DNA of 64,000 nucleotides from Pelotomaculum schinkii (GTDB taxonomy: Bacteria > Bacillota > Desulfotomaculia > Desulfotomaculales > Pelotomaculaceae): positions 992,001 through 1,056,000 of the forward strand of contig NZ_QFGA01000002.1 in assembly GCF_004369205.1 (NCBI RefSeq). The letters are read 5' to 3'. The translations under genes and the position numbers were made by a program. How positions within the stretch are numbered: the stretch's first letter is position 1; each line of letters starts with the position of its first letter. The notes below the pieces were generated by a model. The model made no database searches. It worked only from the letters and a program-made list of their open reading frames with translations, and was not told the DNA's origin. Positions 46,478 through 61,916 of this stretch are shown here, one piece after another.

Positions 46478-46560
46478 GTCGGAGTGGCGGAATAGGCAGA
46501 CGCGCACGTTTGAGGGGCGTGTGGGTGACCGTGCGGGTTCAAGTCCCGCCTCCGACACCA
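46478..46560 (+). tRNA. tRNA-Leu (anticodon GAG), site of element integration
   Basis: The acceptor GTCGGAG pairs with CTCCGAC and CCA is encoded at 46558-46560. The anticodon loop TTGAGGG gives GAG, and a variable arm is present (83 bases in all). Its last 21 bases are repeated at 61896-61916, so a 15.4-kb element now separates the tRNA from its original terminator. Confidence 0.96.
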
Positions 46561-48221
46561 GTTAAAAACCGCACATTGTTGGATGTTAAAATTTCTGTCT
46601 CATGAACCTGAATTGGGTCTGCGTACCAGTGGATGGTGATACGAGAAGCTTCTGGATCAAATTCCATTCGGCGAATAAATGTACGTATAAACTCCCTACG
46701 CTCTCGGTTAGTTCCATGTGCTAAGACCTGATCTAAACTTTGGACGTAATCCCTTAATCGAATAGTGTCTATTTTTTCTAAAGCTGGCTTGGACAGAGCC
46801 TGCTTTTCTTTTTGTTTTTCCATCTCGCTGATTTCTACTTTTCTCTGTTTAATGGCATCATTATAGAGCTCGATGTTTTCTCCTGATGCAACAGCTGCAA
46901 TAAGATTTTTAATTTCAGCTTGTTTCTCAATAATAACCTTTTCAATTTTTTTAGCGGCCTGCCGGTACTCTTTGGTTTCAGCGTCAATTGCAGCCGATAT
47001 CTTTTCTACCAGTGATTCTAATGCTTCAGGAGAAAACCTTAACCTAATTTGCTTAATTACTTCAGTTTCAAGCCAAATCTTATCCACCCTTACATCCTGG
47101 CAAGCCTCTCTTCCTTGATAGGTTATTGTACCACAGCGGTACTTGTTAGCGTGTCGCCCCCCTTGTATATAGCTCGCCATTCTTCCTCCACAAGCTAGGC
47201 AAACAAAGAAGTCCTCCCCATCATAATTTTTACCGGTGAATAGCCAGGGGCTGTCATGTAAGCGGGGCGGAGTTTTACTTCTTTGTTTTCTTCCACACAA
47301 TTTCCGAGCTAATAATGCTTCTTCCTCAGTAATAATAGCAGGGTGTGCATTTGCAACTTTTACCCATTCGTCTTTATCTTTAAAACGTGTACCCTTGGCC
47401 TGTCTATCTTCACGATTCCAGAAGGCATAGCCGGCAGTCTGAAGCAGCCTGTCCTCTCTAAACAACTCACTAATAAAACTTACGCAAATTGGCCTTCCCT
47501 CAGGACTTTTCACTCCCTGGGAGTTCAAATATTCAACTATTGCTTTATGTGACATTCGCTTTTTTATTTTACACTCCAACACAATAGTTTTTAACAGCGG
47601 CCCCCATTCATCGTCAACCTCCCATAGTTGTTTATAAATTGGGAATCCTCGATGATCAACTCCGCGCTCTACTCGGATATTTCGAAAACCTGCTGGTGCA
47701 CGACCGCCGTTTTTAAAACACCACCCTGTTTCCGGATCGCGCATTGCAATATTTCCTTTCATTTTTTCCAAAACATGTAATGAAGTTGCAAGACTTTCAG
47801 TTTCTGATCTGGTTTCATCTATTGACTCCATCCATTTCCCTTGAATCGTATTCGGGTCATACGGGCTTGTTACTGAAATAACCTGGATACCATGTTCCTC
47901 AAGACCAGCTTTTAAGATATTCGCTTTCCGTTTTCTGCGACAAAAACGAGTTGCATCATGTACTAAAAACAATGATACATGGGAATCGCGTTTTGCAAGC
48001 TCAAGCAGATATTCGAATCTAGGCCGTACTACATCGTCTCTGAATGCTGATTTACCGTCGTCGAATTCTTCAGCAATGATTTCAACATCATTTTGGGCCG
48101 CCCATTTTCGAATAGCTTCAAGCTGTGTTGGGATCGAAACTCCTTTCTCCATTTGCCTCGGATCAGAAACTCTGGCGTAAGCTACTGCGTACTTTTTTTT
48201 CGTTGTTTTTACTCTGCACAT
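46539..48221 (-). CDS. large serine recombinase (integrase)
   Basis: 560 residues. The N-terminal resolvase domain shows the catalytic Ser in AVAYARVSDPRQMEKGVSIP and the ATRFCRRKRKANIL segment. A recombinase domain (residues 180-290), a zinc ribbon (FVCLACGGRM...YRCGTITYQGREAC) and a coiled coil (residues 415-480) follow. ATG at 48221 has AGGAGGTGAC upstream. The gene reads outward into tRNA-Leu: its last codons (GVGGGT, stop) are the antisense of the tRNA 3' end, so the stop codon is supplied by the host. Excision would alter the C-terminus. Confidence 0.95.
   Translation of the reverse strand: MCRVKTTKKKYAVAYARVSDPRQMEKGVSIPTQLEAIRKWAAQNDVEIIAEEFDDGKSAFRDDVVRPRFEYLLELAKRDSHVSLFLVHDATRFCRRKRKANILKAGLEEHGIQVISVTSPYDPNTIQGKWMESIDETRSETESLATSLHVLEKMKGNIAMRDPETGWCFKNGGRAPAGFRNIRVERGVDHRGFPIYKQLWEVDDEWGPLLKTIVLECKIKKRMSHKAIVEYLNSQGVKSPEGRPICVSFISELFREDRLLQTAGYAFWNREDRQAKGTRFKDKDEWVKVANAHPAIITEEEALLARKLCGRKQRSKTPPRLHDSPWLFTGKNYDGEDFFVCLACGGRMASYIQGGRHANKYRCGTITYQGREACQDVRVDKIWLETEVIKQIRLRFSPEALESLVEKISAAIDAETKEYRQAAKKIEKVIIEKQAEIKNLIAAVASGENIELYNDAIKQRKVEISEMEKQKEKQALSKPALEKIDTIRLRDYVQSLDQVLAHGTNRERREFIRTFIRRMEFDPEASRITIHWYADPIQVHETEILTSNNVRFLTGVGGGT
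46540..46560 (+). repeat. attL-type site (tRNA-Leu 3' end)
   Basis: 21 bases (core AAGTCCCGCCTCCGACACCA) identical to 61896-61916. It is followed by GTTAAAAACC (46561-46570), the inverse of GGTTTTTAAC before the other copy. Confidence 0.9.
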
Positions 48222-48567: not shown

Positions 48568-48951
48568 ATGCTTATAGAAACTGCCGAGTGGCTTACCCAG
48601 GCCGAATATGACCTAGATACAGCAGATAGCCTTTACCAAGCCGGAAGGTATATCTACACTATCTTCATGTGCCATCTGGCAGTTGAAAAAACACTAAAAG
48701 CGCTTGTGGTTGAAAGAACAGGCAAAGTCCCACCCAAGACTCATAACCTTATTCAACTGATAAAACTTGGGCAACCTAGTCTTAACAATGAACAGACAAG
48801 GTTTGTTACCCGCTTAAGCCTAGCTGGAATTGTTACAAGGTATCCCGAGGAACTCAAAAAGGCATTGAGTGATTACCCGCCTTCAGTTACAAGGGATTAC
48901 CTGAAGAGAGCAAAGGATGTGTTTAAATGCCTGAAACAACAAATAGGGTAG
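48568..48951 (+). CDS. HEPN-domain protein (toxin-type partner of MNT)
   Basis: 127 residues, all helical. AEYDLDTADSLYQAGRYIYT and CHLAVEKTLKALVVERTG then PPKTHNLIQLI match the HEPN pattern of small two-gene modules. ATG with GAAAGGTGG upstream. HEPN proteins in such pairs are RNases or are AMPylated by the partner. The Rx4-6H catalytic motif of HepT is not obvious here, so activity is uncertain. It overlaps the nucleotidyltransferase gene by 25 bases. Confidence 0.8.
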   Translation: MLIETAEWLTQAEYDLDTADSLYQAGRYIYTIFMCHLAVEKTLKALVVERTGKVPPKTHNLIQLIKLGQPSLNNEQTRFVTRLSLAGIVTRYPEELKKALSDYPPSVTRDYLKRAKDVFKCLKQQIG

Positions 48952-49268
48952 CTGAAATTGTTAAAGCCTATCTGATTGTTCTCAAAAAAAAAGGGATTCC
49001 TCTCCAAAGGGCATATTTATTCGGTTCCCAGGCAAAGGGCGCAGCCGGGCCTTATAGCGACATTGACGTAATCGTTGTTTCCCAAGCTTTTACCGGTATG
49101 CCACAGTGGAAAAGGTGGGAAATCCTTGGTGACGCACTGGCTGAAATAATGGAACCTATTGAAGTGCGGGGTTACGCGCCGAATGAAATCGACCAGGCGC
49201 AAAAACAAAAAGCCAGCTTAATTTACGAAGTGCTGACTGAACCCGGAACAATTGAATATAGAGTATAG
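48927..49268 (+). CDS. MNT-type minimal nucleotidyltransferase (antitoxin-type partner)
   Basis: 113 residues with the pol-beta nucleotidyltransferase signature: RAYLFGSQAKGAAGPYSDID, where GS and the DxD pair bind nucleotide and metal. Known MntA antitoxins AMPylate HEPN toxins. It starts inside the HEPN gene and is followed by a hairpin, so the two form one unit. Possible roles are toxin-antitoxin maintenance of the element or phage defence. Confidence 0.85.
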   Translation: MPETTNRVAEIVKAYLIVLKKKGIPLQRAYLFGSQAKGAAGPYSDIDVIVVSQAFTGMPQWKRWEILGDALAEIMEPIEVRGYAPNEIDQAQKQKASLIYEVLTEPGTIEYRV

Positions 49269-51478: not shown

Positions 51479-51763
51479 CTATTTTAGACGTTTTAGTATG
51501 ACGACTTCTTCTTCCTGGGTGGAAAGCCGGCTGTCGATCTTCTTAATGTCAGCCCAAATATACTTAAGCTCATTTTTAATTTCTGCCTGACCTTGTTCAA
51601 GTGCCTTCTGACCTTGTTCGAGCGACTTTACGCTTTGATCGAGTCCCTTCTGGCCTTGTTCGAGCGACTTTACACTTTGCTCGAGTCCCTTCTGGCCATC
51701 CGTAAGCGCTTTCAGTTGTTCAAGCACAAGCCTTTGGAATTGTTCATTATCCATGTCTACCAA
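51479..51763 (-). CDS. coiled-coil protein with 14-residue tandem repeats
   Basis: 94 residues. KGLEQSVKSLEQGQ and KGLDQSVKSLEQGQ are tandem 14-residue copies, with a shorter KALEQGQ unit after them (two heptads each). The protein continues as a charged coiled coil (AEIKNELKYIWADIKKIDSR). The 42-bp repeats are visible in the DNA. There is no signal peptide. It may be an oligomeric tether or cytoplasmic partner of the neighbouring genes. Repeat number could vary between strains. Confidence 0.7.
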   Translation of the reverse strand: MVDMDNEQFQRLVLEQLKALTDGQKGLEQSVKSLEQGQKGLDQSVKSLEQGQKALEQGQAEIKNELKYIWADIKKIDSRLSTQEEEVVILKRLK

Positions 51764-53482: not shown

Positions 53483-54202
53483 ATGGAAAATGATTTCGGT
53501 GTTCTATTACGTTCGATACGAAAAAGTAGAATGATGAGTCAAAAAGATTTAGCTGAAAAAGCTGGAATTGACCCTTCTCATCTTAATAAGATCGAAAAAG
53601 GTATAAATATGCCTTCTGATAAAGTTTTATTTAATCTTGCTGATGTTCTCGTTGCTGAAGAGCTTTTTACTGCTGCTGGCATGCTTATACCACCTGAGTT
53701 TGAAAAAAAACACCCTCTTAAAGAACCTATTAAATTTCCACAAGTGGAATACCCACAAGTATTAGAAAAAATGCATAATATATATTTAAATGAATTTCAC
53801 AAGGCTTTCCATGAACGACTTGAAAAAGAAGATGAAATTGGTGTAATTATTAGGCTGATTAGTTCGACTAGAAGTGTATATCTTACATATGAAAAAGGTT
53901 TAGGCCAGACAGAAAATGAAAATATCAAGATTTTTGTGGAAACTGCTAATAATTTATTAAAATTATATGGACAGTTAGATGAATTACAATATAAAATGGG
54001 TGAAGACACTAGATATACTGAAGGTGAAGCTGCTGGTAAATGTATGGCATTACAAGATATATGGGAAGAGATACAGAGAAATATAAACTTTAACCTTAGT
54101 GGATTTCTTGCAGATATAATAAAATTAGATAAGAATGACGCCGAATTTATAGCAGATATAATAAACGTACGAAAAAGCAAAAAGCCCCCTACCGTTGAAT
54201 AG
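53483..54202 (+). CDS. Xre-family transcriptional regulator
   Basis: 239 residues. The N-terminal HTH_3 domain is LLRSIRKSRMMSQKDLAEKAGIDPSHLNKIEKGIN. The rest is helical and unrecognised, longer than simple phage repressors and perhaps an oligomerisation or sensing domain. ATG at 53483 with CCGGAGTAA upstream. It faces the excisionase-like gene and probably keeps the element quiescent. Confidence 0.85.
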   Translation: MENDFGVLLRSIRKSRMMSQKDLAEKAGIDPSHLNKIEKGINMPSDKVLFNLADVLVAEELFTAAGMLIPPEFEKKHPLKEPIKFPQVEYPQVLEKMHNIYLNEFHKAFHERLEKEDEIGVIIRLISSTRSVYLTYEKGLGQTENENIKIFVETANNLLKLYGQLDELQYKMGEDTRYTEGEAAGKCMALQDIWEEIQRNINFNLSGFLADIIKLDKNDAEFIADIINVRKSKKPPTVE

Positions 54203-54216
54203 GGGGCTTCACTTTT
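54179..54216. terminator. bidirectional terminator inside two converging gene ends
   Basis: AAGCCCCCT pairs with AGGGGGCTT. The stem encodes the last codons of both the Xre gene (KPPTVE) and the opposing HTH gene (KPPIQR); the two coding regions overlap by 14 bases within it. Confidence 0.85.
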
Positions 54217-54395
54217 GACTGTTCAATAAAATTTAGAAGATCACCTTTTGTAACACGGTGTGTCTTATTAAATTTATACCCTTTTAATATTCCGGCAGCT
54301 ATCCAGCGATAGACACTCCGTTTCGGGACATTTAAAATAGTTGCTACATCTGCAATAGTATAAAATTCTAACACCGTTTTATTAATATCTTCCAC
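54189..54395 (-). CDS. excisionase-family HTH protein
   Basis: 68 residues: FYTIADVATILNVPKRSVYR and KGYKFNKTHRVTKGDLLNFI fit the MerR-like HTH_17/excisionase pattern. ATG at 54395 with AAGGAGAG upstream. Likely a recombination directionality factor or small regulator for the element. Confidence 0.85.
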   Translation of the reverse strand: MEDINKTVLEFYTIADVATILNVPKRSVYRWIAAGILKGYKFNKTHRVTKGDLLNFIEQSKVKPPIQR

Positions 54396-58737: not shown

Positions 58738-58818
58738 CCTCAATTTTTAATTTGGAAGGGCTAGACTGGCGTTGTGGTTTTCAAGGCCAGTCTAGTCCTT
58801 CCAAATTAAAAATTGAGG
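58738..58818. repeat. large hairpin: 33-bp inverted arms with 15-base loop
   Basis: Arms 58738-58770 and 58786-58818 are complementary at 32 of 33 positions; the exception is a G-T pair in one orientation. No poly-T follows the GC end. It is far too long to be chance and lies in a non-coding part of the element. Confidence 0.95.
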
Positions 58819-59876
58819 CACCCCTTCCGGACCGGAAGTAACAGGCAACCTTCCATGGTATAAGCCGTCATACTTGGCAGCCAGGCAACACGATGAGGGC
58901 TGCACGGAACGACCAGTAAAAGCTACAGAACAATACCTGCGGAGCAGGATTTGCCTTCGCAGCTCAAAAGACCAGAACACAAAAAGCCTGCGTAGGCACA
59001 AAAAGCCTCTCGGCGTGGGGCAATCCAACCAAACATGGGAAAGAAAAAAAGACCAAACCCACCCCTTTATGCACTCTTTAAGAGTACCGCCAGGCAACGC
59101 AGTAAGCCGAATGGCGGCTTATTGAACGAAAGATTTTCGATTTGCCCCAGGCGCCGGTATCTCAGACCTGCCAAAATCCTTAATTCTTACTTTTGAAGGA
59201 ATAGCATTAATACTAGTATAGCGCTAGTATTATGCTATATTCATTGATAATTCAGCACTAGACCGGGGCTATCCTTGGCATTAAATAACAACGATGCCAG
59301 CCACCACACACCACTGCCATATGCAACCGGGCCAAGAGAGTTCGCGGATTAATTGGACCTAGTGGCCTATATATTAGCCGGAGGGTTAAGCTTGAGATAG
59401 TTCGACTGCAGCAGACCCTGGTGGAAGCCAGGGGATGCAAGGGAGTGCTAGCTCAAGGTTAATCCCGTAGGCGGATGTTATCATGATAACATCCGCTAAC
59501 ATCAAACATACAACCGTTATTTTGTTAACATTTTTCAAACGCTGTTTTGCGCCGAGACAGATGCGCTCCATAATATGCAGCTCCTCCGGTACTTGGTGGC
59601 CAACAACCTCCGCTGGCACCACGGTCAGGCCCAGGGGGGCAGCCCCGTACCGATGCGGACGATCAAGGTCCTCCAGCTCACTGGTGGTTTTGAAAAAATC
59701 GAAAAGACCTTATTTTAAGGTCCATACTAACCGCCTACGGGATAGGAACGCAATATCTCCCTCATGGCTCTGTTGGAATATAGGCACTAGTATAGTGCTA
59801 GTATTAGCATGCTAGCACAGGTATAGCATGCACGCTTTTCCATGATTTCACAGTACTAGTGCAACACTATCCCTAG
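58819..59876. other. 1-kb gene-poor tract rich in CTAG palindromes
   Basis: Frames here are short and unconvincing. A dyad at 59201-59238 (AATACTAG...CTAGTATT) and a second group at 59786-59835 share the CACTAGTATAGTGCTAG theme. It borders the replication-protein genes and may belong to an origin. Confidence 0.55.
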
Positions 59877-60567: not shown

Positions 60568-61482
60568 TCACAAATACAAAGTTCTTATAAAAGCTTTCTT
60601 CTTGTCAGTAGACGATGATTTCTTGGTATTTTTGTTGTTGCTATGATCTCTTCTTGAAGTTGTTTTTGCTCTGGCAGGTTGATCGGGTTTTATGTCATTT
60701 TCTAACGCATACCTTAGCCATCCTCCCACCCTTTTGATATCGGCACCTCGGTATAGCTGTCGTCGTAGTTCTGAAAGTACTGAATCAACCTTCGCTAATG
60801 AGTAATCCCTAACGATTTCTTGTGCAAAACTAACTGAGACATCGGCTCCGGCTACTGCCCGGACGTTTGCGCGGATGATCTCCCATGCCGGTAGTTCGTC
60901 TAGTCTTTTTTCTTCCCGGGCCGGCAGCAGTTCCTGATTGCCATCTTCAAACATAGCAGCTACCGGCAAATCAAAAGCAGCTCCGTCATTTACGACAATG
61001 CTGCTTGCCTGGTCATCCTTTGAAATTACTTCCACATTGGTAGCTTCTTCAACAACAACATTATTTTCTACTGAGTATTCTTTGTACGACATACATGTCG
61101 TGTCCGGACCTGGCATATTTGTCGTATTCGGATGCGACATATTTGTCGTGTCCGGCATTTTCAGGCGTTCCACAGTTTTTATATCTTTTATATAGTAGAC
61201 ATTGGTCTGGTTCTGCCCACGTCGTCGCCAGGTGATGAGGCCGTACTCCCGTAGCTCAATGAGGTATCTTTGAACCTGCCTAGTACTGATTTCAGCAACT
61301 TGTGCAAGGCGTTCCTGGCCGGGAAAACACTCATTTTCCTGCCATGCGAACATCATCAATAGGCCATAGATAAGCTTTGCCCCGATACTTAATCCCCTCG
61401 CCATCATTACGGCATTAGGAACCGATGTAAAGCCTTTCTTAAGTTTGGGGTTCTCCATGATAAGCGTTTTGTCTGTCATCAT
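60568..61482 (-). CDS. replication-initiator-like HTH protein
   Basis: 304 residues from an ATG at 61482 after GGAGG. An N-terminal winged helix of the HTH_36/RepA-like type: KKGFTSVPNAVMMARGLSIG, then GQERLAQVAEISTRQVQRYL and LREYGLITW. A low-complexity spacer repeats PDTTNM-like units three times (24-bp DNA repeats). A C-terminal basic helical region follows (RRQLYRGADIKRVGGWLRYA). Such proteins initiate replication of plasmids and integrative elements. Its start overlaps the preceding gene by ATGA. Confidence 0.7.
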   Translation of the reverse strand: MMTDKTLIMENPKLKKGFTSVPNAVMMARGLSIGAKLIYGLLMMFAWQENECFPGQERLAQVAEISTRQVQRYLIELREYGLITWRRRGQNQTNVYYIKDIKTVERLKMPDTTNMSHPNTTNMPGPDTTCMSYKEYSVENNVVVEEATNVEVISKDDQASSIVVNDGAAFDLPVAAMFEDGNQELLPAREEKRLDELPAWEIIRANVRAVAGADVSVSFAQEIVRDYSLAKVDSVLSELRRQLYRGADIKRVGGWLRYALENDIKPDQPARAKTTSRRDHSNNKNTKKSSSTDKKKAFIRTLYL

Positions 61483-61748
61483 ATAGCCTCCGCCTCCCGG
61501 ATCAGCCGGTGTTGCTGGAGCTCGATAACACATTTCCGGATCTTCTTTCTATCACTTCCGGTAAACTCTGCAAGGTAGCTCTCCGTAATCTTATCACTAC
61601 GCCAGGTTAACATGAGGAATATTGAAAATAGGGCTTTAGACTCAAGAGATAATGTTTGTAATTTAAGCACGGAATTAGGAACCGAAGTCAGACCGTCCCT
61701 CATGGTGGGATCAAGAAAAATCAAATCCTTAGATTTATTTTTTGTCAT
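61479..61748 (-). CDS. paralogous winged-helix protein (N-terminal domain only)
   Basis: 89 residues: RDGLTSVPNSVLKLQTLSLE, then LMLTWRSDKITESYLAEFTG and CVIELQQHRLIRE. It aligns with the first 80 residues of its downstream neighbour, so it looks like a domain duplication. ATG at 61748 with GAGGTG upstream; the genes overlap by 4 bases and are coupled. It may modulate the initiator. Confidence 0.7.
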   Translation of the reverse strand: MTKNKSKDLIFLDPTMRDGLTSVPNSVLKLQTLSLESKALFSIFLMLTWRSDKITESYLAEFTGSDRKKIRKCVIELQQHRLIREAEAI

Positions 61749-61895
61749 CTTTAATACACCTCACTAGTCTAATGTCTAATCTGGGTGAAATAAAATAGCC
61801 GGGCGATTTTATCGACCGGTCAGAGCATTATAAATGCATCAAAACATTTTATTTTCCCTTAATAAACATCCATTTCCGTAGTGAGGTTTTTAACA

Positions 61896-61916
61896 CAAGT
61901 CCCGCCTCCGACACCA
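61896..61916 (+). repeat. attR-type copy of tRNA-Leu 3' end
   Basis: 21 bases identical to 46540-46560. Preceded by GGTTTTTAAC (61885-61894), followed by host DNA with the tRNA's terminator. Confidence 0.9.

Follow-up and report, generated by a model that had tools for sequence, protein, structure and literature searches.

The results presented here suggest, with a probability of roughly 0.6, that a mobile element in Pelotomaculum schinkii carries its attP within the 3' end of its own integrase gene, and that the excised circle would encode a 572-residue enzyme with a selected C-terminal tail and the integrated element a 560-residue enzyme. Control of serine integrase direction is relevant to phage biology and genome engineering. 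In the proposed arrangement, the state of the DNA and the sequence of the enzyme would be coupled inside the gene, which is testable with two constructs that differ by the 12 tail codons.

The recombinase gene and its attachment sites

The window, which is the whole stretch of 64,000 nucleotides that was analysed, contains the following features at the two ends of the element.

46478..46560, + strand: tRNA-Leu(GAG), the integration target, with its 3' end rebuilt at attL (ARAGORN)
46539..48221, - strand: large serine recombinase, integrated form of 560 aa (Resolvase PF00239, 4e-18; Recombinase PF07508, 2e-10; PHROG 95 integrase, 1e-66)
46539..46541, - strand: stop codon TGA that ends the integrated form, in which TG belongs to the core and A to host T-loop base 46539
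46540..46560, + strand: 21-bp att core (T-loop C56 to CCA) at attL, exact direct repeat
46549..46550 (other copy 61905-61906): inferred crossover dinucleotide CC/GG, at the centre of the attP inverted repeats in nine sites
46561..46574: attP arm on the recombinase-end side (GTTAAAAACC-G-CAC), inverted repeat with 61881-61894
61859..61861, - strand: TAA stop of the excised form (junction translation)
61862..61897, - strand: predicted coding sequence of the circle-only tail CVKNLTTEMDVY, whose first codon TGT overlaps the core (junction translation; relatives)
61881..61894: attP arm at the far end (GTG-A-GGTTTTTAAC), an inverted repeat that doubles as code for VKNL and part of T
61896..61916, + strand: 21-bp att core at attR, exact direct repeat

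The recombinase is of the large serine type. PF00239 and PF07508 are both above cut-off, and R17, S19, R92 and R95 are invariant among 12 homologues. C341, C344, C363 and C374 may form a zinc ribbon, with C344 absent from one of the 12. An AlphaFold2 model (11 sequences, mean pLDDT 76.6) has long helices at residues 398-445 and 450-475, with a pTM of only 0.37. A sequence search of solved structures matched a single resolvase-type chain, over the N-terminal part of the recombinase only. The system resembles LI/A118 and the phiC31 type (PMC3783163, PMC5814800) in its resolvase and recombinase domains and in a pseudo-palindromic attP around a central dinucleotide; a zinc ribbon, which its Cys residues would fit, and a predicted long coiled coil may be further common features.

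The integrated open reading frame ends in LTGVGGGT followed by TGA, inside tRNA-Leu(GAG). The TGA is antisense to the T-loop TCA at 46539-46541, and base 46539 lies one base beyond the 21-bp repeat. The sequence-only reading had proposed that the integrated gene reads into tRNA-Leu and ends with GVGGGT and a stop given by the host; the translation and ARAGORN bear this out exactly.

The 21-mer CAAGTCCCGCCTCCGACACCA has two exact copies in the window and no other within three mismatches, with 0 expected by chance. This repeat pair therefore defines an element of 15,356 bp. The inverted arms of attP centre on GG in nine sites, as is typical of large serine integrases, in which attP is a pseudo-palindrome around the central dinucleotide. 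Most of the nine sites beat offset controls; the exceptions are genome G049, where the signal is weak and the arms agree at 5 of 11 positions, and G111, which ties with one offset. The assignment of GG as the crossover is supported by the limits of tRNA identity, which stops at GG in G431 and two bases further on in G014. All crossovers within the 21-bp identity yield one and the same predicted circle junction. In G014, the integrase at locus L035 (G014:C158), 63% identical over its C-terminal part, leaves the core two bases past GG into unrelated DNA, which would fit insertion outside a tRNA gene.

The predicted circle form and the tails of relatives

Joining position 61895 to the core changes TGA to TGT, and the frame of the reconstructed circle continues as GVGGGT-CVKNLTTEMDVY-TAA to give 572 residues. 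The predicted junction on the recombinase strand is GGGACTTGTGTTAAAAACC. The earlier claim that the circle frame passes through attP and gains 12 residues before a TAA was reproduced exactly in this reconstruction, and the two different C-termini that it assigned to the free and integrated forms are predicted from both reading frames. The tail would be confined to the free circle, since insertion into the host tRNA gene supplies a stop codon. An extension of 12 codons is by itself unsurprising, given a median open run of 13 codons from random positions in the element. The surprising part is its conservation among relatives.

Relatives of the recombinase were sought in 113 genomes of the order Desulfotomaculales (E<=1e-40) and were found in 16. 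Many adjoin or overlap a tRNA gene for Leu(GAG), Cys(GCA) or Leu(TAA), or for Thr in the wider phylum. Far ends were located by direct repeats or by a pattern for core copies outside tRNA genes. This pattern matches in six of the 113 genomes, all of which carry this recombinase. In reconstructed circles, seven far-end att sites from six genomes of the order extend the frame by 10-13 residues, and every one of these tails has a stop of its own. The tails that follow GVGG[GA][TN] are as follows.

G000 (the window's genome): CVKNLTTEMDVY
G015: CPKSLTTEMDLNL
G111: WAKTLTTEMHVDV
G049: WSKTLTTEFQL
G033: WVEMLTKISL
G006 (two sites): WAEMNIKISL and WAEMNVEISL

The tails fall into two alignable groups, [CW]xK[NST]LTTE[MF].. 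and W[VA]EM..[KE]ISL. The sequence-only reading had raised the question of whether homologues keep the tail on their circular form; close homologues do keep an alignable one on their reconstructed circles, which suggests that the tail does something. The integrase of G111 is broken and the far att site of that genome is on a separate contig, as is that of G049 with respect to its integrase; the G015 element is a 1.5-kb remnant. In the distant relative of G431, at 36% identity, the tail is 15 residues long and bears no resemblance to these. In favour of a link between tail and integrase, G109, which yielded no relative of the integrase, has an attR-like site at this tRNA but no such tail there.

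A single-protein search of genome contigs gave no relatives, and an alignment search of these contigs gave 23 loci. Phage and plasmid collections contained no relatives at E<=1e-20 and therefore provided no native circle sequence. Two distant relatives are present in viral contigs. One viral contig matched the core pattern but had neither a tRNA nor a similar tail, and none of its listed reading frames was recognised as an integrase; this match was set aside as probably due to chance. Far ends sought for the Cys, Leu(TAA) and Thr relatives gave no convincing second site.

Two further loci contain related sites. An orphan attP-like site in the window's genome (L097, G000:C1:1595893-1595913) has the core GGTGTCGGAGGCGGGAGTTGG and arms CATTTC/GAAATG centred on GG. 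It reads GVGGGSWSEM..., with WSEM kept and no stop nearby; no tRNA was found within the surrounding 3 kb, and no second integrase relative in this genome. At locus L031 (G006:C3:129900-149899), a distance of 2.8 kb separates two att sites. Both have a tail and are accompanied by a copy of the host flank, as would be expected if elements had accreted in tandem at a single tRNA.

Possible roles of the tail and alternative explanations

On the excised circle, the integrase gene would read through attP to produce the 572-residue enzyme, and selection would maintain its tail. When the element inserts into tRNA-Leu(GAG), the codons of the tail would come to lie at the opposite end of the element and the T-loop of the host would complete the TGA, leaving the integrated element to make the 560-residue enzyme. 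The tail may change a property of the enzyme on the circle, be it activity, stability or partner binding, and enzyme and DNA would thereby switch state together. It could, for instance, stimulate integration. Because the final strand of the model is at residues 527-532 and residues 538-560 have a pLDDT below 50, the swap would alter a flexible extension, predicted to be disordered, and leave the folded body alone.

The standard account of serine integrase direction is a separate directionality protein. Excision of this element most likely still requires such a factor, for which there is a candidate gene.

54189..54395, - strand: small HTH_17 protein, candidate excisionase or directionality factor (PF12728, 1e-13; PHROG 66 excisionase and regulator, 1e-7)

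It is therefore likely that the element uses an ordinary directionality factor. Since it has this excisionase-like gene, the tail more likely has a modulating role than that of a pure direction switch, although the latter is possible. It is a tentative idea that the integrase senses its own integration state through the att site, with tailed and trimmed forms that act differently as a self-contained switch of directionality or commitment, with or without a directionality factor.

It is rather improbable that the tail is only the native C-terminus required for full activity, with no evolved switch involved and the integrated form being a hypomorph that is tolerated and holds the element quiet. 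The frame into the tRNA is identical across Leu, Cys and Thr targets irrespective of a stop, as this explanation would have it, and the integrated stop therefore seems unselected. When the host tRNA has A57, on which the integrated stop of the window's recombinase depends, the integrated frame ends at the T-loop TGA (GVGGGT*, GGDTRI*, GAGDRT*, GAHNRD*); when it has G57, the integrated frame of relatives reads on past the T-loop. An Armatimonadetes relative with a tRNA-Met target uses a different frame. However, loss of a conserved segment at every integration would have a consequence anyway, and the sequences fit this explanation and an evolved switch alike.

The possibility that the tail is a by-product of attP, in which the DNA is retained because the integrase binds it as an arm and the peptide has no role, is an unlikely one. 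About half of the tail DNA also serves as attP arm, and the inverted repeat spans tail codons 2-6 and can explain WxEM and xKxL as DNA. The LI/A118 integrase has an attP half-site of 25 bp (PMC3783163), and conservation as DNA may therefore account for the tail codons as far as the first T of LTTE. However, beyond about 25 bp the tails stay conserved as far as the stop, through changes that preserve the meaning and through differing stop codons, and pairwise identity drops to about chance immediately past the tail stop. Between G033 and G006a, at a distance of at least 27 bp from the centre, 5 of 15 bases differ and both sequences retain KISL and the stop (P=0.0002); a combination of three independent pairs beyond the arm shows codon meaning retained more than expected of random changes (P=0.0004, or P=0.0026 with the other G006 copy), and a broader synonymous-change test over the whole tail gives P=0.006, all of which are descriptive only, as pairs and regions were picked after the tails were seen. 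Pairs of the LTTE group beyond the arm are not significant alone. From these sequence comparisons, codon-level constraint beyond the attP arm appears best supported in the W..EM..ISL group, and the tail of the excised form is probably selected as protein and lost upon integration.

The closest precedents for a selected, state-dependent tail are the integration-dependent repressors of mycobacteriophages and the archaeal suicidal integrases. In the integration-dependent immunity of BPs and related mycobacteriophages (PMC9262239), attP lies in coding sequence, the target is a tRNA gene and integration removes a C-terminal tail, as is seen here in the reconstructed circles. In BPs, attP is inside the repressor gene and a stop arises from a Cys codon through the host base that adjoins the core (PMC9262239), the same change as in the present element. 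However, the switched gene in the mycobacteriophages is a repressor and the integrases are tyrosine-type, whereas here the switched gene is the serine integrase. Given this shared architecture, the tail could be a degradation signal that limits the integrase on the circle, with integration giving a stable enzyme, and the tails finish in hydrophobic residues (VY, NL, QL, DV, SL). This explanation is doubtful: the mycobacteriophage tail is an ssrA-like tag, whereas no tail here ends in AA, and the conserved part is internal (KxLTTE, EM..ISL), the final residues varying in the LTTE group. If the selected-tail reading is true, a recombinase has independently acquired the kind of state-dependent tail that mycobacteriophage repressors are known to have.

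The archaeal suicidal integrases (SSV1, pTN3, pT26-2; PMC8371274) likewise have attP within the integrase gene and are altered by integration. Those enzymes are tyrosine recombinases that are split into two pseudogenes, whereas the enzyme described here is of the serine type and would lose its last 12 residues with the folded body whole. The literature searched, with incomplete coverage, contained no serine integrase with a state-dependent C-terminus, a conserved excised-form tail or a 3' end that spans attP.

Content of the mobile element

It is very unlikely that the element has become a fixed relic, unable to excise and never making the circle, since, despite the decay of some relatives (G015, G111), the intact integrase reading frame, exact 21-bp repeats, a regulator, the candidate excisionase and replication genes are all present. 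The element encodes the integrase, a HEPN/nucleotidyltransferase pair, XRE-type regulators, one of which is at 53483-54202, and a CopG-type antitoxin-like protein. Its replication initiation-like proteins are encoded near the far end.

60568..61533, - strand: replication initiation-like protein (PHROG 270, 5e-18; G049 homologue with 48% identity over 135 residues)

Except for the replication-like gene and weak similarities, none of the remaining genes was found in the elements of relatives. A homologue of the host flank beyond the far repeat is present in G091 directly after the 3' end of tRNA-Leu, on a contig that begins within the tRNA; this arrangement is as expected of an empty site.

The HEPN and nucleotidyltransferase (MNT-like) pair at 48568-49268 adjoins the integrase and is likely a toxin-antitoxin pair. 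The region 60568-61748 encodes two neighbouring replication-like proteins with a mutual identity of 29% over 79 residues, and 24-bp repeats at 59851, 60464 and 60498, near these genes, could be iterons. An inverted repeat of 37 nt with a 7-nt loop and 95% complementarity is at 58738-58818. Finally, the small gene at 51479-51763 contains 21-bp tandem repeats (51572-51697), and its product resembles a coiled coil.
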